In this document: positions 171 through 25,330 of the stretch, in pieces
Position numbering within the stretch: position 1 is the stretch's first letter
Layout of the letters: each line of letters starts with the position of its first letter
Assembly: GCA_022769125.1 (NCBI GenBank)
Contig: JALEKN010000035.1
Span: forward strand, 1-64,000
Source of the DNA: Agathobacter sp.
GTDB lineage: Bacteria; Bacillota; Clostridia; Lachnospirales; Lachnospiraceae
Direction of reading: 5' to 3'
Length of the DNA: 64,000 nt
The notes under the pieces: generated by a model
Database searches by the model: none
Told to the model about the DNA's origin: nothing
Seen by the model: the letters and a program-made list of their open reading frames with translations, nothing else
Program-made: the position numbers and the translations under genes

Positions 171-1631
171 ATGAAGAAGCTACAAGAATCAAGTGCAAAG
201 TGTTTTATTGCATATATGTGTCTGGTATTTCCCCTCTTTTTTCACAACAATTATATAGACATTATGCAGGCAAAGAGGCTGGCTTTTCTATTTGGTGGAA
301 TGACCTTTGTGATCGCTATGGCGATATTCGGGCTGATCGATCATTTTTCTTCAAAAAACAAAACGCCGGTGCAGCGACGGGGGTATGAGTGTCTGCTGCC
401 TGTGGCTTTTTTAATTTCCTGGGGGATATCGTTTGGACTTAGTATCGATAAGTCAGAGGCATTCTGGGGATATGGGGCAAAATGCACAGGCTTATTAGTA
501 TATGTAGTAGGATTATTGTGCGCGTATCTTCTTTGGAAGCATCTGACATGGACACCGATCCTTACATGGACGTTCCTGTTTGGATCAGGGATTGTCAGTA
601 TACTTCAGATCTTAAACCGTTGGGGGATTGATCCATTTGGAATGTATAGTAACCTGATCGAAGAGGAGAAGCCTATTTTTATCAGTACGATCGGTCAGGT
701 CAATTATAATGCTGCGTTTAATTGTCTGATCATAGCTGTACTATTGGTATTGTTTATGCTGTGCGAGGAACTGTTTTCAAAGATTGTTTTTGCAGTGGCA
801 TTGTTGATAGCATATGCAGGCGGTATCTGCTGCTGCTCAGATAGCATATATCTTGCATGGATCGTAATGTTTTATACACTTCTCATTTATGTTTGCGCAC
901 ATCCTAAGAAGTGGTTCAGGCTTGTAGCGGCGTTGCTTCTTTTGGATGCAGCGGTATTTGGAGTGTGGATCTGCTGGAGCTATATCCGGCAAGTGCGTTT
1001 TTGGGGAATATCGGCGCTTCTATTTCAGATGAAGCTGCATTGGGGACTTACGATCCTGCTGTGGATTTTTATTCTGGTTGGCTCTCTCGTATGGTGGAAG
1101 GGGAGCAAAATATGGAAGCAATTTTGCATTGCTCTTATGGTTGTTTTGCCCGTGACAATGGTTGGCGTATTTAAATGGACAATTTATAGCTGGCAGATTG
1201 CCAGTGAGGTGAGCTGGACAGGGACACGTTTTCAGATCTGGGAAAAATCCTGGAGGACATTTACAAATGCTCCATTGCCAAACAAACTATTTGGCTATGG
1301 ATTCAACAATGCCCAACAAGCACTTGCTGTAGCAGGAGAGAGCCAGCTTGGAGGGGAAATCATACAGGATGCGCACAATATTTTCTTAAATTCACTTTTG
1401 ACATCGGGAGTCGTGGGGACGATCCTTATGGCAGGATTTCTTATTGGGCTTCTTGTGAAATGCATTCGGTTAACCGAGAAAAGGAATGTTGCGCTGTTTG
1501 GGTGTATGATTGTTGTAACGTATTTTACACAGGGAATGCTGAATGGACCACAGATATTGACAGAGCCGGTGTATATGGTGGCATTTGGAGTTGTGGCAGG
1601 AATTGTTAAAGGGAAAAAAGAACGAAATTAG
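171..1631 (+). CDS. O-antigen ligase/polymerase-like polytopic membrane protein (Wzy/WaaL family)
   Basis: A 486-residue, very hydrophobic protein with about ten to twelve predicted membrane helices. Near the C-terminus it has DAHNIFLNSLLTSGVVGT, the H-N-x-x-L-x-x-L-x-x-x-G pattern of the Wzy_C/O-antigen ligase superfamily, preceded by the long extracellular loop these enzymes carry. In a Gram-positive cell it would polymerise or transfer a lipid-linked surface glycan on the outer face of the membrane. The start at 171 is chosen because AGGAG (161-165) sits 5 bases upstream; an in-frame ATG at 126 lies in the tail of the preceding terminator. Downstream glycosyltransferases and nucleotide-sugar genes support a polysaccharide role. 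Whether it is a polymerase or a ligase cannot be decided from sequence alone. Confidence 0.8.
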   Translation: MKKLQESSAKCFIAYMCLVFPLFFHNNYIDIMQAKRLAFLFGGMTFVIAMAIFGLIDHFSSKNKTPVQRRGYECLLPVAFLISWGISFGLSIDKSEAFWGYGAKCTGLLVYVVGLLCAYLLWKHLTWTPILTWTFLFGSGIVSILQILNRWGIDPFGMYSNLIEEEKPIFISTIGQVNYNAAFNCLIIAVLLVLFMLCEELFSKIVFAVALLIAYAGGICCCSDSIYLAWIVMFYTLLIYVCAHPKKWFRLVAALLLLDAAVFGVWICWSYIRQVRFWGISALLFQMKLHWGLTILLWIFILVGSLVWWKGSKIWKQFCIALMVVLPVTMVGVFKWTIYSWQIASEVSWTGTRFQIWEKSWRTFTNAPLPNKLFGYGFNNAQQALAVAGESQLGGEIIQDAHNIFLNSLLTSGVVGTILMAGFLIGLLVKCIRLTEKRNVALFGCMIVVTYFTQGMLNGPQILTEPVYMVAFGVVAGIVKGKKERN

Positions 1632-1685
1632 AAAAGTGATATTTATGGTATCATCAAACAGTTTTCTTTTGAATATCGAGTGCTC

Positions 1686-1718
1686 TTGACATTTTTTACG
1701 CTTTTTTATAGCTATAAT
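1686..1718 (+). promoter_or_regulatory. Possible promoter of the ATPase/TOPRIM pair
   Basis: TATAAT at 1713-1718 is a perfect -10 box; a perfect TTGACA lies at 1686-1691, but the 21-base spacing is long, so the -35 may be another sequence. A start site near 1725 would place the ATG at 1717 outside the message and favour the start at 1804. Confidence 0.35.
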
Positions 1719-1803
1719 GTTGCAAAAAGGTAGGGATAAGTGTAAAATGAAAAGAGAAATTAGTTCGGGAAAACTGAACAAATATACAAAAGAGGACAAT
1801 GCC

Positions 1804-2937
1804 ATGATTATAATGGATCTAAAAATAGATAATTTTTTTGCATTTAAGGAATTTCATATGAATATGGCATATCCTAAGAAAATTGTTAATTCATATATTC
1901 CAAATGAGCATTTATGGGGGCGGGATAATTTCCGATATAAGAAAGTCAATATTTTAATGGGTGGAAATGCAACTGGAAAAACTTCTATCGGGAAAATGCT
2001 GATGGCTATCTGCAATTTTATTGAAAGAGATGATATGCATGGGCTGTTAGATAGAATTACCGATGTAAATAGAGATGCTACTATTTCGATGGATTTTGTC
2101 GGTGATGAATTCGTAATGTACCGTTTGGACATTAAAGTAAAGCTTTCGGATAAGAATGAAACAACTCCGCAGATTGTGGCTTGCAAGAGGGAAGTCTTTA
2201 TTAATGAAAAAGATCGTTATGAAACTTGTGCGCAGAAGATTGATCAGATACCATTGGAGTACAAGGAGAATTATAGGGATGAAATAGATGAGATAGAGCC
2301 GATTGGATGGATGTTTACATATCCATCGGATACGAGTGATAAAAGAGCAAAATTCCCTGATGATGCATCTTTTGTCAAGGTGTTAGATTATACACTTCGC
2401 TCGTTGGATCCGTCAATTATTCAAGTGGATAAATCCAAGGAGGTCAATAATACATATATCATCCATTTAGACTCCGGCGATTTGTTGGTACAAAATGGAG
2501 AGGTTATCAGAAAAAATATTTTGTCGAGTGGAACGAAGGCGGGAATTGATATTGCTAGCCTGATCTTTTCAATTTACAAAGGAGAATGCGGATTTTATTA
2601 TTGTGATGAGAAATTTTCATATATACATAGTGAATTGGAAAAAGCATTTTTGGCTACGATGATTCATGGACTAAAAAATAATGAACAACTATTTTTTACA
2701 ACGCATAATTCTGATATTTTGGATTTGCCATTGCCAAAACATTCGTTTACTTTTTTAAAAAAGGAAATGTGTGATAGAGAACAATTTATTAAGTGTGTCT
2801 ATGCATCAGACTATTTAAAACGGAGTACAGATTCTGTACGGAGAGCAGTTGATAATGATCTATTTTCCATAGCGCCGGGGGTTGAATTGGTATATAAAAT
2901 TGCAGAAATAGAGGAATTTGCACAAGAGGAAGGTTAA
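1804..2937 (+). CDS. ABC/SMC-type AAA ATPase (AAA_15/OLD-like), candidate defence ATPase
   Basis: A 377-residue protein opening with LKIDNFFAFKEF, the typical first strand of RecF/SMC-like ATPases. Visible motifs: Walker A GGNATGKTS at 53-61, an ABC-like signature LSSGTKAG at 240-247, a Walker B-type acidic pair DE at 268-269 and the switch histidine in TTHNSDIL at about 301. This set is typical of the AAA_15/AAA_21 ATPases found in OLD, RloA, PARIS (AriA), Gabija and Septu-like systems. The start at 1804 is supported by AGAGGA 7 bases upstream; an in-frame ATG at 1717 overlaps a -10 box. The stop codon overlaps the start of the next gene (TAATG), so the two are translationally coupled. Base composition is visibly AT-richer than the neighbours, suggesting acquisition. 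I cannot assign it to a named system. Confidence 0.75.
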   Translation: MIIMDLKIDNFFAFKEFHMNMAYPKKIVNSYIPNEHLWGRDNFRYKKVNILMGGNATGKTSIGKMLMAICNFIERDDMHGLLDRITDVNRDATISMDFVGDEFVMYRLDIKVKLSDKNETTPQIVACKREVFINEKDRYETCAQKIDQIPLEYKENYRDEIDEIEPIGWMFTYPSDTSDKRAKFPDDASFVKVLDYTLRSLDPSIIQVDKSKEVNNTYIIHLDSGDLLVQNGEVIRKNILSSGTKAGIDIASLIFSIYKGECGFYYCDEKFSYIHSELEKAFLATMIHGLKNNEQLFFTTHNSDILDLPLPKHSFTFLKKEMCDREQFIKCVYASDYLKRSTDSVRRAVDNDLFSIAPGVELVYKIAEIEEFAQEEG

Positions 2938-14069: not shown

Positions 14070-14930
14070 TCACCACTGCCTGCGATACTCTCCGGGCGTA
14101 AGCCCCTCGACTTTTTTGAACATACGTGAAAAATATGCAGCGTCTCCCATACCACAGGAGGCGCTGATCGCGTCTAAGGGAGAATCTGTAAAGCGCAGGA
14201 GCTGCTTTGCCCGCGTGATGCGAAGCCCAAGCAGATAGCTGCCGGGGGTCACGCCAAACTGCTCCTTAAAGCTTCGCGTAAGATAGAACTTGTTGATATA
14301 AAAGCGTTCAGAGAGTTCATCAAGTGAAATCTTCTGGGTAAAATGGCTGTCGAGGTATTCCTTGATGAGGAGGAGATCCTGCTTTTTGCTCTTGGTGCGG
14401 CCGGCAGCTTCCGGATTCCAGCTCTCGCGCATCAACTGTGTCATAAGGACACAAAGCTTTTCGTTGAGCAGCATGTCCTTCACATAGTCCTCCGAGTTAG
14501 CAATCGAATAAATATCATCCAAAAGGGTAACATACGGAGTGATATCATCGGGACAAAATGCCGGATGCCCGCCCCGTTCCAGATATTTTTCGTAGATACT
14601 GTTCATGTTTGGACCATAAAAGTGAACCCATTTCAGCTGCCACAGATTCTGTTCGGTATGGTGCGAGTAGGCATTATGGCAGTCCAGAAATACGCAGTCT
14701 CCTGCACTTAGCGCATAGTTTTTTCCATTATAGTCGAGAGAACCGGAACCTGAGACAACAATAAAGAATAAATAGGATGCCAGATGTTCGCGGGCACTTG
14801 TGTGAGGCTTCTGCGCCTGAAGCGTGCCGGTTTCCTGCAGGTGAAACAGACTACTTCTGGCAAATGCAGACGGAGTATACAATATCCTCTTTGAACTAAC
14901 CAGATTTCCATGAAACAGAGAGTCATTCAT
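14070..14930 (-). CDS. AraC family transcriptional regulator with cupin sensor domain
   Basis: A 286-residue regulator. Residues 1-150 form a cupin-like sugar-sensing domain (SGSGSLDYNGKNYALSAGD). The last 100 hold the two AraC helix-turn-helix motifs, including ISLDELSERFYINKFYLTRSFK and ITRAKQLLRFTDSPLDAISASCGMGDAAYFSRMFK. It converges on fucU, and an 8 bp inverted repeat TGACCGGA/TCCGGTCA (14050-14072) lies at its 3' end. Only 28 bases separate its start from the large palindromic element at 14958, so its promoter must lie in or next to that element. It probably answers to a sugar, perhaps fucose, given the neighbours; this is not shown by the sequence. Confidence 0.88.
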   Translation of the reverse strand: MNDSLFHGNLVSSKRILYTPSAFARSSLFHLQETGTLQAQKPHTSAREHLASYLFFIVVSGSGSLDYNGKNYALSAGDCVFLDCHNAYSHHTEQNLWQLKWVHFYGPNMNSIYEKYLERGGHPAFCPDDITPYVTLLDDIYSIANSEDYVKDMLLNEKLCVLMTQLMRESWNPEAAGRTKSKKQDLLLIKEYLDSHFTQKISLDELSERFYINKFYLTRSFKEQFGVTPGSYLLGLRITRAKQLLRFTDSPLDAISASCGMGDAAYFSRMFKKVEGLTPGEYRRQW

Positions 14931-14957
14931 ACGACAGTCCCCTTTCTTTTACACGAT

Positions 14958-15520
14958 TGCCCGGCCCTCCGCCAACCTCTTTTAATATTCGCGAAACCCC
15001 ATGCTGCATCCCCCCGGTGCGTCCACCCCTTGGCAAAAAACACCACTTCAAATTGCGAAATTCTAATTCAACCGCTTCGGCGGTTCTTTTATCAGTTCTG
15101 TCTTCTATAGGTTTGAGCACTCCGGCCCGGCTGTTCGCGGTAGACGGACTTTTCTTCCGAGGGCTTTCGTGTCTCCCTTGGCGGGCGGGCCGAACAAAAT
15201 GGGAGCATGCTCCGATTGTTTGAGCTTACTATGTTTATATATAGAATACATAGAAAGCGAGTTTTGAGGGGCATGCTCCTAATAACAACTTTGTGAGGCC
15301 GCCCGCTTAGGGAGACTAGGAAGACCGACAGAAAAGTCTGCCTACCGTGATACAGTCGGGCACGGAGTGTCAAAGCCATATAAGACACAACCCGATCACC
15401 GTCGAAACGGTTGAAAGAATTTCTGCAATTTTTGTGGAATCGTTTTTTGCCAAGGGGTGGACGCACAGGGGGATGCAGCAGGATCTTCGCATATAGAAGA
15501 GGTTGGCGCCGCCGGGGCAT
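14958..15520. repeat. Large imperfect palindromic element, copy 1 (noncoding)
   Basis: The whole 0.56 kb folds on a centre near 15240. The outer arms match best: GCTGCATCCCCC..GTGCGTCCACCCCTTGGCAAAAAAC from 15003 is repeated in reverse complement up to about 15479, and weaker pairing extends to GCCCGGCC (14959) and GGCCGGGGC-like sequence at 15510-15520. Inside, stretches such as TCTCCCT..GCGGGCGG (15172-15190) recur inverted at 15298-15316, and GGAGCATGCTCC and GGGGCATGCTCC lie on either side of the centre. It has a homologue in reverse orientation at 24801-25330. Reading frames of 60-140 codons exist on both strands but follow the palindrome and lack ribosome sites. No flanking target duplication was seen. 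The 216 bases from its end to gmd hold nothing I recognise. Confidence 0.85.
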
Positions 15521-15736
15521 GGTAAGGTGTTAAGGAAAGGATATGTCATGTGGAGTGAAAAGTCAATATTGTACAATGGAATGCCAAGAAACACTATGGA
15601 AAAAGAAAGTAAGATGGTATAGAATATACAATATCGCAAGAGAATGACGGATTTGGCAGAGATAAGAAAATCTTGCAAAATAATACATTATGAGATGTCA
15701 GAGAACAAATAAAAGACAGATAAGGAGAACGATTAC

Positions 15737-16786
15737 ATGGCAAAAGTAGCATTGATTACAGGAATTACAGGACAGGACGGATCATACCTTGCAGAGTTTC
15801 TGCTGGAAAAGGGATATGAGGTACACGGAATCACAAGACGGGCATCCATCTCCAATACAGCACGTATCGATCATCTGATCGCGGAGCATGCGGTCACCCT
15901 GCATGACGGAGACCTCTCCGACTCATCATCACTGATCCGCATTATCGGGCTGGTACAGCCGGACGAGATCTATAATCTTGCGGCACAGTCACATGTGCAG
16001 GTATCCTTCGATGTCCCGGAATACTCCGGAGACGTAGATGCACTTGGTGTACTGCGTATTCTTGAAGCATGCCGCATCCTGGGACTGACTAAGAAAACAA
16101 AGGTATACCAGGCATCCACCTCAGAACTGTTCGGAAAGGTAGAAGAGGTTCCGCAGCGCGAGACAACACCATTCCACCCATACAGCCCATATGCAGTTGC
16201 AAAACAGTATGGCTTCTGGATTGTGAAGGAATACCGGGAAGCATACGGAATGTTTGCGGTAAACGGAATTCTCTTTAATCATGAGTCAGAGCGCCGTGGG
16301 GAGAATTTTGTTACCCGTAAGATCACACTTGCGGCAGGACGCATCGCGGAAGGAATTCAGGATCATCTGGAGCTTGGCAATATGAATTCCCTTCGTGACT
16401 GGGGATATGCAAAGGATTATGTTGAGTGCATGTGGATGATCCTTCAGCATGAGACACCGGAAGACTTCGTTATTGCTACCGGTGAGCAGCACACGGTACG
16501 TGATTTTACAGAGAAGGCCTTTGCTGCCAATGGTATTACAATTCGCTGGGAAGGAACCGGAATTGACGAGAAGGGATATGACGCAGCAACCGGAAAGATG
16601 CTTGTATGCGTAAACCCTGAGTGGTTCCGTCCGACCGATGTAGACAACCTGTGGGGAGATCCGACCAAGGCAAAGACCGTGCTGGGATGGAACCCGCAGA
16701 AGACTTCCTATGAGGAGCTGGTCCGTATCATGGCTGAGCATGACCGCGCTCTTGCAAAGAAAGAGGCAGCGGCAGTACGCGCATAG
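15737..16786 (+). CDS. gmd: GDP-mannose 4,6-dehydratase
   Basis: A 349-residue extended short-chain dehydrogenase. It has the NADP-binding loop [23 protein letters not shown], the Thr/Ser-Tyr-Lys catalytic set ([17 protein letters not shown]) and the family signature [17 protein letters not shown]. It converts GDP-D-mannose to GDP-4-keto-6-deoxy-D-mannose, the first step of de novo GDP-L-fucose synthesis. The start follows AAGGAGAA. Fcl and ManC follow in order, making a complete GDP-mannose to GDP-fucose branch. The palindromic element lies upstream, so this gene is the first of the bracketed block. Confidence 0.95.
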
Positions 16787-16882
16787 AAGTGAGCGAGAGT
16801 TAAAATCGATATTTGATGGAAGAAGGAGGCGTGCCGCTTCTGATGAAGATGCCGGCATGCCGTGCGAAAGAAGGATAAGAAA

Positions 16883-17827
16883 ATGATGGAAAAAAACGCG
16901 AAAATATATGTTGCAGGACATAGAGGAATGGTGGGCTCCGCAATCGTGCGATGCCTTGAAAAGCAGGGATACACCAATATCATAACCCGCACACACAAGG
17001 AGCTTGATCTGTGCAGACAGGATGCGGTGGAAGAATTTTTTGCAACGGAAAAGCCGGAATATGTATTTCTTGCGGCTGCAAAGGTAGGAGGAATCGTTGC
17101 AAACGCAGAGGCGCTTGCGGATTTCATGTATGAGAATATGATCCTGGAGATGAATGTCATTCATTCGGCATGGCAGAACGGCTGCAAGAAGCTGGAATTC
17201 CTAGGATCTTCCTGCATCTATCCGCGTATGGCACCGCAGCCGATGAAGGAGAGCTGTCTGCTTACCAGTGAGCTTGAAAAGACAAATGAGGCATATGCGC
17301 TTGCAAAAATCTCCGGCCTCAAGTATTGTGAGTTCTTGAACAAGCAGTATAAGACGGACTATATCAGCGTCATGCCGACGAACCTTTATGGACCGAACGA
17401 TAACTATCACCCGACTCACAGCCATGTACTTCCGGCCCTGATCCGCCGTTTCCATGAGGCGAAGGTCAATGGACTGCCTGAGGTTACCTGTTGGGGAGAT
17501 GGATCGCCGCTTCGCGAGTTCTTATATGTGGATGACCTTGCTGATTTGTGCGTATTTCTGATGAACAATTATTCCGGGGATGAGACAGTCAATGCAGGAA
17601 CCGGAAAAGAGCTTACCATCAAGGAACTTACTGAGCTTGTGGCAAAGGTGATCGGATATGAGGGAGAGATCAAATGGGATGCTTCCAAGCCAAACGGAAC
17701 ACCGAGAAAGCTTCTGGATGTGAGCAAGGCAGAGTCCCTGGGATGGCATTACAAGACGGAATTGGAAGAGGGAATCCGTCTTTCTTACGAAGATTTCTTA
17801 AACAACCCGATGCGCGCAGAACGCTAA
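16883..17827 (+). CDS. fcl: GDP-L-fucose synthase (3,5-epimerase/4-reductase)
   Basis: A 314-residue short-chain dehydrogenase with N-terminal VAGHRGMVGSAIVR, the FLGSSCIYPR segment and the catalytic YALAKISGLKYCE. These are diagnostic of GDP-fucose synthase (WcaG/Fcl), which epimerises C3 and C5 of GDP-4-keto-6-deoxymannose and reduces C4 with NADPH. A frame start at GTG 16862 is possible, but AAGGA at 16871 points to ATG 16883 (or 16886). The gene follows gmd by 96 bases and precedes manC by 19. Confidence 0.95.
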   Translation: MMEKNAKIYVAGHRGMVGSAIVRCLEKQGYTNIITRTHKELDLCRQDAVEEFFATEKPEYVFLAAAKVGGIVANAEALADFMYENMILEMNVIHSAWQNGCKKLEFLGSSCIYPRMAPQPMKESCLLTSELEKTNEAYALAKISGLKYCEFLNKQYKTDYISVMPTNLYGPNDNYHPTHSHVLPALIRRFHEAKVNGLPEVTCWGDGSPLREFLYVDDLADLCVFLMNNYSGDETVNAGTGKELTIKELTELVAKVIGYEGEIKWDASKPNGTPRKLLDVSKAESLGWHYKTELEEGIRLSYEDFLNNPMRAER

Positions 17828-17846
17828 GAAAGAAGAGGACAATTCT

Positions 17847-19172
17847 ATGAATATTGTGTTGCTTTCCGGAGGATCGGGAAAGCGGCTCTGGCCACTTTCA
17901 AACGATATCCGTTCGAAGCAGTTTATCAAGATATTTAAGGGAAAAGACGGCGAGTATGAATCCATGGTACAGCGTGTGTATCATCAGATAAAGTCAGTTG
18001 ACGATGACGCAACCGTGACGATCGCCACTTCCAAGAAACAGGTATCTGCGATCAATAACCAGCTGGGGGAGGGCGTCGGAATCTCAATCGAGCCATGCCG
18101 CCGCGACACATTTCCGGCAATCGCGCTTGCAACCGCATATCTGCATGATGTGCAGGGGGTACCGGAGAATGAGGCTGTTGTCGTATGCCCGGTTGATCCG
18201 TATGTCGAACGGGAATACTTTGAAGCTTTAAAAGAACTCGGACGCCTCGCGGCGGAGGGGACTGCCAACCTGACTCTCATGGGAATCGAACCAACTTATC
18301 CGAGTGAAAAGTATGGCTATATCATCCCGGAGTCAAAGGAGAATGTAAGCAAGGTTTCTACCTTCAAGGAAAAGCCGGATGTGGAGACTGCGAAGGATTA
18401 CATCGCAAGAGGTGCGCTGTGGAACGGCGGTGTCTTTGCGTACAAGATCAGTTATCTGCTGGATAAGGCGCATGAACTGATTGATTTTACCGATTATCAT
18501 GATCTATATGCAAAGTACGAATCTCTGGAAAAGATCAGCTTTGACTACGCGGTTGTTGAAAAGGAGAAAAGTATCGCGGTTATGCGATTCTCGGGTGAAT
18601 GGAAGGATCTTGGAACCTGGAATACGCTGACCGAGGCAATGGAGGAAGAATGCGTCGGTGATGCGACCTTAAATGACACTTGTGAGAATGTGAATGTCAT
18701 CAATGATCTGTCCATCCCGATTCTGTGCATGGGGTTAAAGAATGCTGTTGTCGCTGCAAGCCCGGAAGGTATTCTGGTGTCGGACAAAGAGCAATCCAGC
18801 TACATAAAGCCTTATGTGGACAAGCTGGACCAGCAGGTAATGTTTGCGGAAAAATCATGGGGAAGTTTTCTGGTACTTGATGTCGTGGATGAGAGCCTTA
18901 CGATCAAGGTTACGCTTAATCCGGGACACCGCATGAACTACCACAGCCATGAGCACCGCGACGAGGTGTGGACGGTTATCTCCGGAACAGGACGGACAGT
19001 TGTGGACGGTGTTGTAAGACGTGTGCGTCCGGGGGATGTCGTCTCTGTCATTGCAGGACAGAAGCACACAATCATAGCCGATTCCGAACTTCAGGTGGTT
19101 GAGGTGCAGCTTGGAAGCGAGATCAATGTGGCAGATAAGAAAAAGTTTGATTTTGATTTCGATGCAATGTAA
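17847..19172 (+). CDS. manC: Mannose-1-phosphate guanylyltransferase, probably with fused mannose-6-phosphate isomerase-type cupin
   Basis: A 441-residue type II enzyme. LSGGSGKRLWPLSND (residues 6-20) is the nucleotidyltransferase signature and GTWNTLTEAME lies in the middle. The last 110 residues are a cupin (GHRMNYHSHEHRDEVWTVISGTG) as in bifunctional ManC/AlgA. It makes GDP-mannose from Man-1-P and GTP, feeding gmd. The cupin histidines HSHEH are intact, so isomerase activity is plausible, though the domain is short. Man-1-P could come from the phosphohexomutase at 28396. Confidence 0.92.
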   Translation: MNIVLLSGGSGKRLWPLSNDIRSKQFIKIFKGKDGEYESMVQRVYHQIKSVDDDATVTIATSKKQVSAINNQLGEGVGISIEPCRRDTFPAIALATAYLHDVQGVPENEAVVVCPVDPYVEREYFEALKELGRLAAEGTANLTLMGIEPTYPSEKYGYIIPESKENVSKVSTFKEKPDVETAKDYIARGALWNGGVFAYKISYLLDKAHELIDFTDYHDLYAKYESLEKISFDYAVVEKEKSIAVMRFSGEWKDLGTWNTLTEAMEEECVGDATLNDTCENVNVINDLSIPILCMGLKNAVVAASPEGILVSDKEQSSYIKPYVDKLDQQVMFAEKSWGSFLVLDVVDESLTIKVTLNPGHRMNYHSHEHRDEVWTVISGTGRTVVDGVVRRVRPGDVVSVIAGQKHTIIADSELQVVEVQLGSEINVADKKKFDFDFDAM

Positions 19173-19235
19173 GTATTTATTTGACTTTTGCTTTCCGGCG
19201 TTGTAAAGTAAGCAAAGCGTGACTTGTCTGCACGG

Positions 19236-19256
19236 CCTGCAGCCCGCGGCTGCAGG
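19236..19256 (+). other. Intercistronic perfect hairpin between manC and gtrA-like gene
   Basis: CCTGCAGCC and GGCTGCAGG pair perfectly around a 3-base loop. There is no T run, so it is more likely an RNA-stability or attenuation element than a terminator. Confidence 0.5.
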
Positions 19257-19301
19257 TGAACAGATACGGACTACGCAAAAACAGATAAGGTGGATAATAC
19301 A

Positions 19302-19814
19302 TTGAGCAACTATACACAGCAGGAAAACGAAAAACGAACACTCGTTGACTGGTTCCGGGATTTTATAAAATTCTGGCCGTGGGCGCATGATATTTTTTGC
19401 AAATATGAGGAGATTCTGGTATATCTGGTTGTCGGAGTGCTTACGACCATAGTGTCATGGGTGGCATGCTTCGTGTCGGAGCGGTTTTTCTTAGACGCTT
19501 CCAACGGATTCCAGAACTTTTTGATCAATACGATCGGATGGGTAGTAGGTGTATGCTTCTCCTATCCGCTGAATCGCAGCTGGGTATTTAAGAGCCGCAA
19601 TCCAAAGGTTGCACAGGAATTTATGATGTTCGCATCCTCACGGCTTTCAACATGGCTTCTTGATATCGTGATCATGTGGCTGACCGTTAACATTTTCCAA
19701 TGGAATTACTGGGTATCCAAAATCTGCGTATCGGCAGTTGTGGTTACAATCTTAAATTATGTGTTCAGCAAAGTACTGATCTTCAATAAGAAAGATAAGA
19801 AAAATCAAAAATAG
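19302..19814 (+). CDS. GtrA-like small polytopic membrane protein
   Basis: A 170-residue protein with four membrane helices, beginning at about residue 38 (ILVYLVVGVLTTIVSWVACF) and including GWVVGVCFSYPLNRSWVFKS, the classic GtrA family sequence. GtrA proteins are proposed to flip or accompany lipid-linked sugars across the membrane. The start is taken as TTG 19302 because AAGGTGG (19287-19293) is placed correctly for it; a GTG at 19290 lies inside that ribosome site. It lies between the GDP-fucose and dTDP-rhamnose sets, followed by a strong terminator. Confidence 0.85.
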   Translation: MSNYTQQENEKRTLVDWFRDFIKFWPWAHDIFCKYEEILVYLVVGVLTTIVSWVACFVSERFFLDASNGFQNFLINTIGWVVGVCFSYPLNRSWVFKSRNPKVAQEFMMFASSRLSTWLLDIVIMWLTVNIFQWNYWVSKICVSAVVVTILNYVFSKVLIFNKKDKKNQK

Positions 19815-19878
19815 CAAAGAATCAGGGCGGCAGGTGCCATCGGCAGCCTGCTGCAGGAGAATGATTCAGTAGGCGGGA

Positions 19879-19919
19879 ACCACCGGACTCATGTATCAGG
19901 CATGACCGGTGGTTTTTTT
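19879..19919 (+). terminator. Rho-independent terminator after the gtrA-like gene
   Basis: ACCACCGG (19879-19886) pairs with CCGGTGGT (19906-19913), extended inward by TCATG/CATGA, then TTTTTTT. It separates the GDP-fucose operon from the rhamnose operon. Confidence 0.9.
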
Positions 19920-19938
19920 ACAATTTTAAAAATATATC

Positions 19939-19967
19939 TTGACTGACGTAACGTCACCCTTGATAAT
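19939..19967 (+). promoter_or_regulatory. Promoter of the rfb (rhamnose) operon with a palindromic operator in its spacer
   Basis: TTGACT (19939-19944), 17 bases, GATAAT (19962-19967). The spacer contains the perfect 13-base palindrome TGACGTAACGTCA (19944-19956), overlapping the last base of the -35 box. A protein bound there would compete with or reshape polymerase binding. Its binding protein is unknown. Confidence 0.6.
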
Positions 19968-20043
19968 ATACAGTTGTCGTATAGTACGTAATATATTGTA
20001 AAGGATATATAAATACATTTCATCCAGATGAAGGAGGATAAGA

Positions 20044-20940
20044 ATGAAAGGCATTATTCTGGCCGGAGGTTCCGGTACAAGACTTTATCCGCTTACCATG
20101 GTGACATCCAAGCAGCTTCTTCCAATCTATGATAAGCCGATGATCTATTATCCGTTGTCAGTACTTATGAACGCGGGAATCCGTGATATCCTGATCATTT
20201 CAACACCGCAGGATACTCCACGTTTCAAGGAACTTTTAAAGGATGGCAGCCAGTTCGGCGTGAATTTAAGCTATGCGGTACAGCCAAGTCCGGACGGACT
20301 CGCGCAGGCGTTTATCATCGGTGAGGAGTTTATCGGGGATGACACGGTTGCGATGGTGCTCGGAGACAACATCTTTGCGGGACATGGATTAAAGAAGAGA
20401 CTTCTGGCTGCTGTGGAGAATGCGAAGAGTGGAAAGGGCGCTACGGTATTCGGATACTATGTGGATGATCCGGAGCGTTTCGGCATCGTGGAGTTTGATG
20501 CGGCAGGAAAGGCAGTTTCCATTGAGGAGAAGCCAAAGCATCCGAAGAGCAATTACTGTGTGACCGGACTTTATTTCTATGACAACAAGGTCGTTGAGTA
20601 TGCAAAGAACCTAAAGCCATCCGAAAGAGGGGAACTCGAGATCACGGATTTGAACCGTATCTATTTAGAGCAGGGAATGCTCAACGTTGAGCTGCTCGGG
20701 CAGGGCTTTACATGGCTGGATACCGGAACACATGAGAGCCTGGTGGATGCAACCAACTTCGTAAAGACGGTCGAGACCCATCAGCACAGAAAAATCGCGT
20801 GTCTGGAGGAAATCGCTTACTTAAACGGATGGATTTCCAGAGAAGAGATGCAGCGCGTTTACGAGCTGTTGAAGAAGAATCAGTACGGACAATACTTAAA
20901 GGATGTATTGGACGGCAAATACAAAGAGAATTTATATTAA
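20044..20940 (+). CDS. rfbA: Glucose-1-phosphate thymidylyltransferase
   Basis: A 298-residue enzyme matching RmlA throughout: [29 protein letters not shown] (within residues 5-35), GDNIFAG and EKPKHPKSN. It makes dTDP-glucose from Glc-1-P and dTTP, the first rhamnose step. Glc-1-P can be provided by the phosphohexomutase at 28396. AAGGAGG lies just upstream of the start. First gene of rfbA-B-D-C, with its own promoter at 19939. Confidence 0.96.
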
Positions 20941-20959
20941 TAATGAGGAGAAGTAAAAG

Positions 20960-21979
20960 ATGACAATTATTGTTACCGGCGGAGCCGGATTTATCGGAAG
21001 TAACTTTGTTTTTCACATGCTTGACAAGTATCCGGATTACCGCATCGTCTGTCTGGATAAGCTGACTTATGCAGGCAATCTTTCTACATTGGCACCGGTC
21101 ATGGACAATCCACAGTTCCGCTTTGTAAAGGCGGATATCTGTGATCGTGAGGCAGTATATAAGCTGTTCGAGGAAGAACATCCGGATATCGTAGTCAATT
21201 TTGCGGCGGAGTCGCATGTTGACCGCTCAATTGAGAATCCGGAGATCTTTTTACAGACCAACATCATCGGTACCGCAACACTTATGGATGCATGCCGCAA
21301 GTACGGAATTACCCGTTATCATCAGGTCTCTACCGATGAAGTATACGGCGACCTTCCGCTTGACCGGCCGGATCTTTTCTTCACGGAGGAGACCCCGATC
21401 CATACCTCAAGCCCATACAGCTCTTCCAAGGCAGGTGCGGATCTTCTTGTATTGGCTTACCACAGAACCTATGGACTTCCGGTGACCATCAGCCGCTGCT
21501 CTAACAACTATGGCCCATACCATTTTCCGGAGAAACTGATTCCGCTTATGATCGCAAATGCACTCAACGACAAACCGCTTCCGGTATACGGAGAGGGATT
21601 AAATGTCCGTGACTGGCTCTACGTGGAGGATCACTGCAAGGCAATCGACCTTATCATCCACAAGGGACGTGTCGGTGAGGTTTACAACATCGGCGGACAT
21701 AACGAGATGAAGAATATTGATATTGTTAAGATCATCTGTAAGGAACTTGGTAAGCCGGAGAGCCTGATCACACATGTCGGAGACCGCAAGGGTCACGATA
21801 TGCGTTATGCAATTGATCCGACAAAGATCCACAATGAGCTTGGCTGGCTTCCGGAGACAAAGTTTGCTGACGGAATCAAGAAGACCATCCAGTGGTATCT
21901 GGACAACAAGGAGTGGTGGGAGACAATCATTTCCGGTGAGTACCAGAACTATTATGAGAAGATGTATGCAAATCGATAG
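20960..21979 (+). CDS. rfbB: dTDP-glucose 4,6-dehydratase
   Basis: A 339-residue extended short-chain dehydrogenase. Signature features are TGGAGFIGSNFV, the YAGNLSTL segment, the DEVYGD motif (STDEVYGDL) and catalytic YSSSKAGAD. It converts dTDP-glucose to dTDP-4-keto-6-deoxyglucose using bound NAD. It is 19 bases after rfbA and 15 before rfbD, so the operon is tight. Confidence 0.96.
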   Translation: MTIIVTGGAGFIGSNFVFHMLDKYPDYRIVCLDKLTYAGNLSTLAPVMDNPQFRFVKADICDREAVYKLFEEEHPDIVVNFAAESHVDRSIENPEIFLQTNIIGTATLMDACRKYGITRYHQVSTDEVYGDLPLDRPDLFFTEETPIHTSSPYSSSKAGADLLVLAYHRTYGLPVTISRCSNNYGPYHFPEKLIPLMIANALNDKPLPVYGEGLNVRDWLYVEDHCKAIDLIIHKGRVGEVYNIGGHNEMKNIDIVKIICKELGKPESLITHVGDRKGHDMRYAIDPTKIHNELGWLPETKFADGIKKTIQWYLDNKEWWETIISGEYQNYYEKMYANR

Positions 21980-21994
21980 GAAGCGGAGGACAGT

Positions 21995-22936
21995 ATGAAG
22001 GTTTTTGTTACGGGTGTCGCAGGACAGCTGGGACATGATGTGATGAATGAGCTTGCAAAGAGAGGTTATGAGGGAATCGGCAGCGACATTGCACCACAGT
22101 ACGGCGGGGCAATGGATGGAAGTGCTGTCACTTCCATGCCGTATGTATCACTTGACATCACAGATGCGGCCGCTGTGGAGCAGACTTTGGAGCAGCTACA
22201 TCCGGATGTTGTTGTCCACTGTGCGGCATGGACTGCGGTTGATCTTGCCGAGGATGCGGATAAGCAGGCGAAGGTGCGGGCAATCAATGTGGATGGAACT
22301 TCTTACATCGCAAAATGCTGTGCAAAGATAAATGCCAAAATGGTATATATCAGTACGGACTATGTATTTGATGGAAGAGGTGAGAAGCCTTGGAAGGCTG
22401 ACTGCAAGGATTACGCGCCGATCAACGTATACGGACAGTCAAAGCTTGATGGCGAGCTTGCAGTCGCGGCTGCTTTAGAGAAGTTCTTCATCGTGCGTAT
22501 CGCGTGGGTGTTCGGCACAAACGGAAAGAATTTTATCCGGACTATGTTAAATGTCGGTGCGACGCATGACAGACTGACTGTTGTGAATGACCAGATCGGA
22601 ACTCCGACATATACGTTTGACCTGGCAAGACTTCTGGTTGATATGATCGAGACAGAAAAGTATGGTTACTATCATGCGACTAACGAGGGCGGTTACATCA
22701 GCTGGTACGAATTCGCGAAGGAGATCTTCCGTCAGGCGGCAGAACTTGGACATACGGAATATGACGCACAGCATCTCCACGTAGCGGCGGTCTCTACAGC
22801 TGAGTATGGGGCTTCAAAGGCAGCCCGGCCATTCAACAGCAGATTGGATAAGAGCAAATTGACGGAAGCCGGATTTACGCTGCTTCCGACATGGCAGGAT
22901 GCACTTGCCAGATATTTAAAAGAAATCGATTTTTAA
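21995..22936 (+). CDS. rfbD: dTDP-4-dehydrorhamnose reductase
   Basis: A 313-residue short-chain reductase with VTGVAGQLGHDVMNEL at the N-terminus, VDLAEDADKQA, ISTDYVFDG and the catalytic YGQSKLDGE. It performs the last step, giving dTDP-L-rhamnose. Here the reductase gene precedes the epimerase gene, giving the order A-B-D-C. Confidence 0.95.
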   Translation: MKVFVTGVAGQLGHDVMNELAKRGYEGIGSDIAPQYGGAMDGSAVTSMPYVSLDITDAAAVEQTLEQLHPDVVVHCAAWTAVDLAEDADKQAKVRAINVDGTSYIAKCCAKINAKMVYISTDYVFDGRGEKPWKADCKDYAPINVYGQSKLDGELAVAAALEKFFIVRIAWVFGTNGKNFIRTMLNVGATHDRLTVVNDQIGTPTYTFDLARLLVDMIETEKYGYYHATNEGGYISWYEFAKEIFRQAAELGHTEYDAQHLHVAAVSTAEYGASKAARPFNSRLDKSKLTEAGFTLLPTWQDALARYLKEIDF

Positions 22937-22950
22937 AAGAGGGTAATCAG

Positions 22951-23562
22951 ATGGGACAGATTAAAGTTACGAAAAATGCCGGCGGAATCGAAGGGCTTTG
23001 TGTGATTGAACCAACCGTACATGGGGATTCCAGAGGATATTTTATGGAGACCTACAATCAGAACGACATGGCTGCAGAGGGGCTTGATATGGTATTTGTG
23101 CAGGATAACCAGTCATGTTCATCCAAGGGTGTGTTAAGAGGTCTGCATTTTCAGAAGGAGCATCCGCAGGGGAAGCTGATCCGTGTAGTAAACGGAAGCG
23201 TGTTTGATGTCGCTGTCGATCTGCGCAAGGACAGCAAGACCTACGGGAAATGGTTCGGAGATGTGTTTACGGCAGAAAATAAGAAACAGTTCTATATTCC
23301 GGAAGGGTTTGCACACGGCTTTTTAGTATTGTCCGATGTGGCAGAATTCTGTTATAAGTGTACAGACTTCTACCATCCGGGAGATGAGGGCGGCCTTGCA
23401 TGGAATGATCCGGAAATCGGGATCGAGTGGCCGCAGCTTGCCGGAGAATACAAGGGAACAGCATCTGCGGAAGGTTACACACTCTCCGATGGGACAGCGC
23501 TTAACTTAAGTGATAAGGATCAGCTCTGGAAAGGTCTGAAGGATACATTTTCCTTTTCTTAA
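22951..23562 (+). CDS. rfbC: dTDP-4-dehydrorhamnose 3,5-epimerase
   Basis: A 203-residue cupin-type epimerase. Visible family motifs are PTVHGDSRGYFMETYNQ, the active-site LRGLHFQ, VVNGSVFDVAVDLRKDS and IPEGFAHGFLVLSD. The start at 22951 follows AGAGGGTAATC; an extended frame from 22891 would overlap rfbD. The last four bases overlap the 3' end of the convergent MerR-methyltransferase gene, with no terminator visible between them. Confidence 0.94.
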   Translation: MGQIKVTKNAGGIEGLCVIEPTVHGDSRGYFMETYNQNDMAAEGLDMVFVQDNQSCSSKGVLRGLHFQKEHPQGKLIRVVNGSVFDVAVDLRKDSKTYGKWFGDVFTAENKKQFYIPEGFAHGFLVLSDVAEFCYKCTDFYHPGDEGGLAWNDPEIGIEWPQLAGEYKGTASAEGYTLSDGTALNLSDKDQLWKGLKDTFSFS

Positions 23563-24761
23563 GGAGTGCAGAGAAAAATACCGGCATCCTTTGTGATATG
23601 CATCGCCGGATGTACGCGTGCTGTCACATATTCACGGAAGTCGTGATACCTGTCTAACAGATATTGATTCTGGTTGCCGTGACAGGACAGAATATATTCA
23701 ATCAGTGGCTCTGCCTGACCGATGATGATTTCATCGTCGTACCGGCAGAGCTTTATTTGTGTAAAAACCTGCCGGAGAGCTGCCTCTCCATTTTCAAGTC
23801 CGAAATTGTCATACAGGACTTCATTGGAGAGAACAATGCGGTAATCAAAGCCCTGCACCAGTTCTGTGATCTCGCGCATATGGCGGCTTCCGTAAGTACT
23901 GCAGCAGAAGAGTCCGCCTGGCTTTAGCACGCGGCGTACCTCACGCAGGACAGCCGGAATATCTTGACAATAGAAGAGCACATGGTTCGCATAGACCAGA
24001 TCAAAGCTGGCATCCGGATAGGGAATGCTGTGACAATCAAAAGTCACAAAGGAGAACCGGTTGTATGGGTCAAAAAAGGAACGGCTTAGATCGCGGATGA
24101 TACCCTCCGAGATGTCGGATAGTGTGATATGGATATCCGGATATCCGGAAAGCAGGTCTGTATTTTCACTCCAGAGTGCTCCGTTTCCACAGCCGAGTTC
24201 AAGTATCTGTGCCTGCTCTGGCAAAGAGGCTGCGGTCATACTTTCTTTTAAAAGCCATGGGAACCAGCCTTGTGGATTGCGCGAGTAAGCACTGTGCAGC
24301 CGGATGCGGGCAGAAATATTGTTCGCATTTAAGTATTGGGACTTTAAACTTTTTTCCATACCTGTCAGGTGGATCAGATTAAGCATCTGGCTCCAGTCGG
24401 TGGAATCGCCGCTTTCGAGCTGGGCGACTGTCGTATCAATGGCGTCTGCTACCAGATGCATCTGCTCAATCCGGTCAAGAACCAGCTTTTTCTGCATGCG
24501 CAGGGTATTGCACAGATACACCGACCCCGGTTCCTCAATGGTCATCTCTTTGATATCATCTAAAGAAAATCCCAGATACTTGAGCAACAGGATCTGCTGG
24601 AGCTTTGCGAAGTCGCTGTCTGTATAGAACCGGCTTCCATTTGCATTTACATAAGATGGCTTCAATATATTCTGCTTATCATAATACCGTATCGTCCTTA
24701 TTGTCACGTGCGCCATCTTCGCAAACTCACCGGACGTATAATATTCTTTCTTCTTTTCCAT
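23559..24761 (-). CDS. MerR-type regulator fused to a SAM-dependent methyltransferase
   Basis: A 400-residue fusion. Residues 8-75 are a MerR winged helix (YTSGEFAKMAHVTIRTIRYYDKQNILKPS) and 80-120 a dimerising coiled coil. From about 150 on is a class I methyltransferase with motif I LELGCGNG (189-194 region), an acidic TLSDIS and VRRVLKPGGLFCCSTYG. MerR proteins bend promoter DNA in response to a ligand; in this fusion the catalytic domain replaces the usual small effector domain, so SAM or the methyl acceptor may be the signal. It converges on rfbC with a 4-base overlap, and its start lies 40 bases from the palindromic element at 24801. Target genes and substrate are unknown. Confidence 0.85.
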   Translation of the reverse strand: MEKKKEYYTSGEFAKMAHVTIRTIRYYDKQNILKPSYVNANGSRFYTDSDFAKLQQILLLKYLGFSLDDIKEMTIEEPGSVYLCNTLRMQKKLVLDRIEQMHLVADAIDTTVAQLESGDSTDWSQMLNLIHLTGMEKSLKSQYLNANNISARIRLHSAYSRNPQGWFPWLLKESMTAASLPEQAQILELGCGNGALWSENTDLLSGYPDIHITLSDISEGIIRDLSRSFFDPYNRFSFVTFDCHSIPYPDASFDLVYANHVLFYCQDIPAVLREVRRVLKPGGLFCCSTYGSRHMREITELVQGFDYRIVLSNEVLYDNFGLENGEAALRQVFTQIKLCRYDDEIIIGQAEPLIEYILSCHGNQNQYLLDRYHDFREYVTARVHPAMHITKDAGIFLCTP

Positions 24762-24800
24762 AAAATCTCCTCATCCCCCTAATGGCATACCCCACCACAG

Positions 24801-25330
24801 GACATTCCTCTGAATGCATCAACAAAGTCTCACGCTCCGGCCGTGCATCCTTCCAAAGCAAAAGCAATTCCACAAGAATTGTAGAAATTCTTTCAACCGT
24901 TTCTGCGGTGATAGGGTTGTGTCTTATATTGGCTTTGACACTCCGCACACGGCTGTTACACGGTAGACGGACTTTTCTGTCGGCCTTCCTAGTTTTTCTA
25001 AGGCAGGCGGCCTTGCGAAGTTGTTATTAGGAGCATGCGCCTCAAAACTCGCATTATAGTTATCCTATATAGCTGCATTGTGAGCTCAGACAGTCGCCGC
25101 ATGCTCCCATTTCGCGCGGCACGCCTGCCAAGAAAAACACGAAAGCCCTCAAAAGAAAAGTCCGTCTATCCGCGAACAGCCGGGCAGGAGTGTTCAAACC
25201 TATAGAAGACATAACTTATAAGAAAACCGCAGAACGGTTGAATTAGAATTTCACAATTTGCAGTGGTGCTTTTGCTTTGGAAGGATGCACGGCCGGAGCG
25301 TGAGGCTATATAGTATGTGGAAGGAATGTC
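24801..25330. repeat. Large imperfect palindromic element, copy 2 (noncoding, inverted relative to copy 1)
   Basis: A 0.53 kb palindrome centred near 25066. CTCACGCTCCGGCCGTGCAT and TCCTTCCAAAGCAAAAGCA (from 24829) recur as the reverse complement ending near 25305, and GACATTCCT (24801) matches AGGAATGTC (25322-25330). The left arm is homologous to the right arm of copy 1 and the right arm to its left arm (shared CAAATTG.GAAATTCTAATTC, GTCTTCTATAGGTTTGA, AGACGGACTTTTCT). The terminal 35-40 bases differ from copy 1 in both arms at once. It lies between the divergent merR fusion and the LCP gene. No ribosome site or coding signature is seen in its short reading frames, and no target duplication was found. 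Confidence 0.85.

Follow-up and report, generated by a model that had tools for sequence, protein, structure and literature searches.

A dispersed foldback repeat family with copy-specific mirrored arms in Agathobacter and its relatives

Introduction

Several described systems combine small size with inverted symmetry. Bacterial miniature inverted-repeat transposable elements (MITEs), among them the TIMEs (PMC4133298) and MITEAba12 (PMC6382973), are short, multi-copy, intergenic inverted repeats that are presumably mobilised in trans. The eukaryotic foldback transposons Galileo (PMC3573991) and Tetris (PMC4079207) carry long inverted-repeat arms that make up most of the element, and repetitive extragenic palindromic (REP) sequences and REPINs, hairpins associated with REP-associated tyrosine transposases (RAYTs), are dispersed intergenic palindromes (PMC3116915, PMC2817692). 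Template-switch mutation at quasipalindromes, in turn, is reported to homogenise arms, produce multi-base changes on two arms and invert spacers (PMC7202029, PMC8794818, PMC8604942). Here we describe a repeat family that resembles each of these systems in part, represented by two palindromes (copies 1 and 2) on either side of a fucose/rhamnose gene block in a 64,000-nucleotide stretch of Agathobacter sp. DNA (hereafter, the window; assembly GCA_022769125.1, contig JALEKN010000035.1, positions 1 to 64,000, forward strand).

The family differs from the bacterial MITEs in being palindromic over its whole length and in having outer arms that are mostly specific to each copy, and neither a parent transposase nor a consistent target duplication was found for it. 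Unlike Galileo and Tetris, with which it can be compared by features only, it is bacterial, 0.6 kb long and without a known coding relative. It is far longer than REP sequences and REPINs, and the lone Y1 gene of the source genome has its own, unrelated borders. The template-switch studies concern E. coli reporters, RNA genes and yeast coding DNA; in the present case, template switching would be shaping mobile elements of 0.6 kb that exist in many replicate copies.

By its features the repeat is of a known kind, a foldback, MITE-like repeat. It is non-coding and small (MITEs range up to about 600 bp), and it occurs in several dispersed copies, about 27 in the source genome and at least 40 in a complete relative, G034. 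Nearly the whole element is an inverted repeat, with shared ends GGAACTGCCGCAATAAGCATA in G034, and long inverted arms span most of it. A survey of literature listings on palindromic, foldback and MITE-like repeats and on this bacterial group, in which subscription papers were mostly not covered, returned no description of the family.

We consider it probable, if well short of assured, that this dispersed repeat of about 0.55-0.6 kb spread in trans and that its arms were then homogenised by template switching. The family is one more repeat family for a gut-bacterial group, and its dozens of related long hairpins with concerted arms amount to a natural replicate experiment on how palindromes are kept up and grow in living genomes. 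If the DNA-level reading is true, RNA selection is not needed to produce compensatory-looking change, a pattern often read as the sign of a functional RNA.

Results and discussion

Two imperfect palindromes share a core and differ in their outer arms

Copy 1 (14958-15520) and copy 2 (24801-25330) each fold from end to end, with energies of -341.5 kcal/mol (z -26.5 against shuffles) and -298.9 kcal/mol (z -23.9). A palindrome detector reported exactly these two in the 64-kb window and none in five triplet-shuffles of it; the detector overlooks short family members and is thus non-exhaustive. The preliminary description of this DNA had called both elements near-complete palindromes, which holds for the end-to-end fold and must be tempered for the sequence, as self-identity is 73% over 539 bp in copy 1 and 72% over 482 bp in copy 2. 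It had also described the two as homologous in opposite orientation. They are indeed inverted relative to each other, with collinear segments of 39-166 nt at 82-92% identity and 85% identity over the core; the homology does not extend over the outermost arms (extension score 2; z -0.2). Within each copy, these outermost arms are 97-98% complementary (15011-15041 with 15442-15472, and 24826-24866 with 25267-25307, the latter 98% over 41 nt). Outside the core of copy 1, 89 of 118 columns are palindromic, with a within-copy z of 16.3 and between-copy z of at most 1.6. The parts of the two elements are as follows.

15036..15447, plus strand: core of copy 1 (family copy L001), 412 bp, conserved among long copies
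14958..15035, plus strand: left outer arm of copy 1, copy-specific, pairing with 15448-15522
15448..15522, plus strand: right outer arm of copy 1, copy-specific
24860..25273, minus strand: core of copy 2 (family copy L006), 85% identical to copy 1 and 92% to the copy at G000:C34:88069
24801..24859, minus strand: outer arm of copy 2 on the side of a MerR-type gene, copy-specific (within-copy z 15.3, between-copy z at most 0.9)
25274..25330, minus strand: outer arm of copy 2 on the side of a LytR-like gene, mirroring the MerR-side arm

The core is dispersed through the source genome

Here G000 denotes the assembly from which the window comes (68 contigs, 2.75 Mb in total), other G numbers denote relatives, and L numbers denote fetched loci or copies. 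BLAST of copy 1 against G000 returned 46 rows, which we grouped into about 27 places that share the core of about 412 bp: 18 long copies, including the two in the window, and 9 short or partial copies that lack the middle or one arm. The long-copy cores are pairwise 63-94% identical (17 of the 18 were aligned; L019, whose left core arm deviates, was omitted). Homologues are also present in other members of the genus, so that the proposal of a MITE-like or structured repeat family made in the preliminary description stands, by its own test, as a mobile-repeat reading.

For 26 copies (the partial copy G000:C20:11403-11549 omitted), and once open reading frames (ORFs) that overlap an element by over 60 bp are set aside, the flanking ORFs terminate outside the elements; L002 and L013, which have small overlaps, are the exceptions. 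Context could be resolved for all but one of these 26: 18 lie between tandem genes, 4 between convergent genes and 3 between divergent genes, the window's two copies being two of these three.

Two related copies in opposite orientation (L011 and L020, G000:C50:16832-18594), one of which has its middle deleted, flank a gene that by eye resembles lactate/malate dehydrogenase genes. Near 49.8 kb of G000:C7, a truncated family copy (L027) adjoins four tandem copies of another hairpin, GTGATGGCTATTGCACATTTTCCCGCTTAGCCATCAC.

Outer arms mirror each other within a copy, independently of the core

Across the 17 long copies of the core alignment, outer arms of about 60-90 bp mirror each other within a copy and mostly differ between copies. 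Within-copy mirror scores have z values of 7.7-16.9 (mean 12.6), as opposed to a between-copy mean of 0.75 over the 136 pairs. Mirror symmetry is significant to about 90 nt past the core, with 16, 12 and 7 of the 17 copies exceeding the 95th percentile in the first, second and third 30-nt windows; farther out, no consistent mirror signal was seen (p 0.28, 0.03, 0.10 and 0.89). The similarity of arms between copies is independent of the identity of their cores (rho 0.01, p 0.90, 136 pairs), as illustrated by L009 and L010, whose cores are 94% identical and whose arms compare at z 1.2. It is these copy-specific mirrored arms, independent of the core, that a specialist would find surprising. The longest exact runs shared by two arms exceed those of column shuffles (Fisher p 3e-7 over the 17 copies; p <0.05 in 7 of the 17 taken singly). 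L019 departs from the other copies in its left core arm, which inverts the right one exactly for 32 nt or more.

Palindrome scanning and profiles reveal a wider family

By BLAST, the core was found in 1 of 62 genus genomes and in 1 of 397 genomes at family level, the single positive being the source genome itself. Plasmid and phage records gave no match to the core, and a pattern scan returned no match in genome contigs and one chance match, inside a coding-like stretch, in viral contigs. Nucleotide search thus confines the core to the species, yet palindrome scanning and profiles place it in a wider family. In 400 kb sampled from G034 we detected seven long palindromes, all mutually homologous, while the one long palindrome in 399 kb sampled from G026 matched none of these seven. 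G034 carries at least 40 copies of a version of about 600 bp (40 of 101 candidates were scored, which makes this a lower bound), some of them 92-96% alike, and the near-full-length element there measures about 600-640 bp. Searching with the G034 element gave matches in 5 of the 62 genus genomes (G034, G074, G075, G076 and G079), G000 not among them.

The G000 profile has matches in G034 (best E 3.6e-13), G074 (2.4e-18), G079 (1.4e-9) and G076 (1.6e-4), in Roseburia faecis M72 (5.9e-7) and, weakly, in G026 (0.0022), each E-value being relative to its own target set; G075 was matched by the G034 profile only. Among 80 named loci (1.34 Mb) obtained with a Lachnospiraceae-type query, nine palindromes were detected, and only the R. 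faecis one fits the profiles. As judged by these profiles, the G000 and G034 repeats are one family across several species of the genus.

Three G034 copies (L177, L179 and L180) carry, at the same position, a 31-bp insertion with a small hairpin of its own.

Concerted changes and interior orientation among the G034 copies

We fetched 30 of the G034 copies and used the 20 near-full-length ones for the analyses of arm changes, pair counts and end variants. These 20 fall into two groups that have ends and core in common and a different intervening block on both arms. Of 196 stem pairs, 39 are changed on both sides (230 cells), a number reached by none of 500 shuffles; sliding the pairing partner as a control gives 6-11 double-changed pairs. 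Two end variants, A and B, lie on opposite arms in 17 of the 20 copies (8 in the order AB and 9 in the order BA; one further copy is BB and two could not be assigned). Since both orders are present, the G034 interior occurs in either orientation relative to the ends.

A proposed model of spread in trans followed by template switching

Under the reading we favour, copies would have been spread by some enzyme acting in trans. Once inserted, the hairpin would provoke replication template switching between its arms, which, by copying one arm onto the other, would keep the palindrome while its sequence drifts and would sometimes invert the interior; the arms may also grow longer when adjacent host DNA is occasionally copied from one side of the element to the other. 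Arm homogenisation and spacer inversion at inverted repeats have been reported as effects of template switching (PMC8604942), as have the origin and upkeep of hairpins (PMC8794818); these are the patterns observed in the family.

The best-supported case of host-flank copying is L015, where the same terminator-like hairpin, probably the terminator of the host gene, is found on both arms; none of 4000 random segments scores as high. At the window's own copies such copying is only suggestive. For copy 1, a possible inverted and diverged copy of the leader and start codon of the adjacent AraC-type gene reaches a local alignment score of 13, attained by 3 of 4000 random segments, or by 2 of 4000 when narrower pieces are used, at positions picked post hoc; in the windowed test it does not exceed the 95th percentile, and the stretch can also be aligned to the sequence of relatives. 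For copy 2, the corresponding figure is 15 of 4000. A bolder version of the proposal would describe a family of mobile DNA whose arms are not fixed: each palindrome would extend itself as template switching copies even host terminators and leaders across, so that the element's identity would consist of its core and its mirror symmetry; we regard this version as tentative and, on the present sequences, rather doubtful.

Selection on the pairing of an RNA transcribed from one strand is expected to give more G-T than A-C cells, and the two classes can be counted without bias when pairs are defined by Watson-Crick complementarity of the consensus. Counted in this way, the G000 core shows no preference (71 G-T to 68 A-C), nor do the two G034 groups taken separately (49/55 and 61/43; neither p<0.05). 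In the G000 outer arms, G-T and A-C cells number 53 and 56. The lack of a G-U preference within groups favours arm-to-arm copying of DNA over RNA selection. Also in the G000 core, 145 cells are changed on both sides to another Watson-Crick pair, compared with 233 pair-breaking cells.

A number of results weigh against this account. Template switching is inferred from patterns, and compensatory selection could yield double changes just like these. Of the 39 double-changed G034 pairs, many represent one split between the two groups (10:10 columns), and the number of pair types does not exceed that of shuffles (90 versus 89.6). When the unbiased G034 counts are pooled, G-T cells do outnumber A-C cells (157 versus 111, p 0.006; by pair 74 versus 47, p 0.018), in counts dominated by the between-group split. 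An excess is likewise seen with RNAalifold-defined pairs, which are selected with wobble permitted (G034 core 30/7, arm block 63/10, ends 34/20), and a per-copy count in the G000 core gives 99 G-T to 75 A-C (p 0.08). Some copies share arms (L007, L008 and L009 at z 8.9-11.4, and five other pairs at z 4.0-5.5), and arm length does not rise with divergence (rho -0.13, p 0.62). Nor does the proposal explain why conservation extends to the core and not to the arms. Neither a transposase nor a consistent target-site duplication was found for the family; by eye, TA lies beside both ends in some G034 copies, with nothing consistent. Two candidate cases of host-flank copying were rejected, namely an ABC-F coding tail at L015 (451 of 4000 random segments) and a terminator tail at L178 (515 of 4000).

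A separated pair of ends around a gene was not seen among the G000 matches, nor was there one among the G034 matches (40 of 101 candidates scored).

Alternative explanations

The arms might instead co-vary through selected RNA pairing, the element being a structured RNA (a leader or a small RNA gene) with a long, rod-like stem. The very strong folds of both window copies, the compensatory changes in G034, the conservation of the core sequence among copies with its bulges included, and the G-T excesses in the pooled and RNAalifold-defined counts would all fit a selected RNA. Balanced counts in the G000 core and outer arms and within the G034 groups do not, nor does the occurrence of the core in either orientation relative to the ends. 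Rfam gave no match at the gathering threshold in the six sources searched, the one sub-threshold match near the window copies being to a miRNA (E 0.43). Taken together, these observations make a structured RNA unlikely.

A protein-coding role was considered as well. Open frames differ among copies, and variability is flat over the codon positions of the longest frame of copy 1 (0.118, 0.138 and 0.127). Stop-free runs average 104 codons versus 78 in shuffles (shuffle 95% limit 119), in differing frames, and in 8 of 17 copies the difference in core length from copy 1 is not divisible by 3. Copy 1 has a long minus-strand frame that is open in several copies; it shows no codon-position pattern and was rejected as a gene.

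Elements might also insert into the tips of hairpins, in which case the copy-specific outer arms would be the arms of a palindrome already present at the target. One G034 locus (L155/L175, C1:96813-97403) is arranged in just this way: the element is nested in the apex of an older one, each flank matches an element half, and the flanks, once joined, form a long hairpin whose loop contains the junction. Element halves on both sides were seen in only this 1 of the 30 fetched G034 copies, and host flanks are mirrored at z >3.5 in only 2 of 19 near-full-length copies (7.2 for the nested L175 and 6.3 for L187). As mirrored host flanks are rare, the long arms would be part of the inserted unit or arise after insertion, and would not reflect a general property of targets. 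In G000, the outer arms show no more than chance similarity to the core (1 of 34 arms from 17 copies at p<0.05), and they were rejected as arms of older elements; a genome-wide search with the left arm of L007 returned that arm, its partner and, beyond these, just two weak stretches, of which one is in L008. For most copies, then, insertion into a hairpin tip is an improbable origin of the outer arms.

A third possibility is that the palindromes are selected as bidirectional terminators or insulators between genes. G034 copies L171-L200 favour convergent gene gaps (17 of 29, against 40 of 328 neighbour pairs; Fisher p 4e-8), also when compared with the 154 pairs at least 50 bp apart (p 2e-6), context being resolved for all but 1 of the 30 copies. 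This bias and the terminator-like hairpin on both arms of L015 are in keeping with such a role. The G000 copies show no convergent bias (4 of 25, p 0.5), the window's two copies lie between divergent genes, and tolerance of insertion accounts for the G034 bias equally well. We therefore think selection for termination or insulation quite improbable.

Mobilisation as REP/REPIN-type repeats by the single Y1 (RAYT-like) transposase of the genome is very improbable. G000 does contain one PF01797 match, an ORF of 255 aa. This IS200-like Y1 gene (L080, G000:C11:48640-48978; 1102-1869, minus strand) is bordered on either side by repeats of the GCGCCCTTTGACACA type and ends of the GGGGACGTTCC type; the repeats that flank it, GGGGACGTTCC and GGAACGTCCCC, are other than those of the family. 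No family copy was found within 1.5 kb of it, where the flanks hold only 16-19-nt family matches (E 0.014-0.048). The elements are, moreover, many times longer than REP sequences.

Neighbouring genes and the insertion site of copy 1

The names of genes between the two elements are those of the preliminary description and agree with the translations by eye only. The features next to the elements are the following.

14070..14930, minus strand: AraC-type regulator gene (as named in the preliminary description), start codon 28 bp from copy 1
15527..15557, plus strand: possible inverted, diverged copy of the AraC leader and start codon (14923-14954)
15558..15574, unstranded: host sequence common to relatives (AAAAGTCAATATTGTAC), right insertion edge by comparison with G063, G031 and G077
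15737..16786, plus strand: gmd-like gene flanking copy 1
23559..24761, minus strand: MerR-type regulator fused to a methyltransferase-like part (translation, by eye), start codon 40 bp from copy 2

The distances of 28 and 40 bp to the AraC and MerR start codons, taken from ORF coordinates, agree with those given earlier. On the MerR side, none of the searched genomes has the MerR-like and LytR-like genes adjacent as they are here. On the AraC side, the regulator lies divergent from gmd without the element in 3 of the 62 genus genomes (G063, G031 and G077), at a spacing by alignment ends of 170-181 bp compared with 821-831 bp here; in 27 further genomes the gmd/fcl part alone was matched (four candidates per genome were scored, so that an AraC neighbour could be overlooked). 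The three element-free relatives have a common AAAAGTCAAT motif some 25-60 bp past the AraC leader, and in the window the element sits between that leader and the motif. Comparison with the empty site gives copy 1 a length of about 560-580 bp. As the relatives keep the AraC-gmd pair without the element, the simplest account would be that copy 1 inserted in the lineage of the source genome.

It had been suggested that the two elements might be promoters acting in both directions, or paired boundaries at which the nucleotide-sugar block is exchanged or inverted. They are oppositely oriented, one on each side of the block, and the surroundings of copy 1 hold 4 promoter-like sites versus 1.6 +/- 1.1 in shuffles. 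With about 27 dispersed copies in the genome, the sugar block is bracketed merely by two of many, and the AraC-gmd pair exists without the element in relatives. Most promoter-like sites lie outside the elements: two of the four near copy 1 are in the gmd leader, and both of those near copy 2 (2 overlapping sites versus 1.5 +/- 1.2 in shuffles) are outside it; only 3 of 25 context-resolved copies lie between divergent genes. The repeat most probably neither marks nor moves the fucose/rhamnose block, and the cassette, inversion and promoter readings, being unsupported, are hardly credible.

One promoter-like sequence, TTGACT-17-TATCCT (15538-15566, minus strand), is directed at the AraC-type gene, reading leftward through copy 1 from the side of gmd, and the insertion of copy 1 may separate that gene from its ancestral promoter region.

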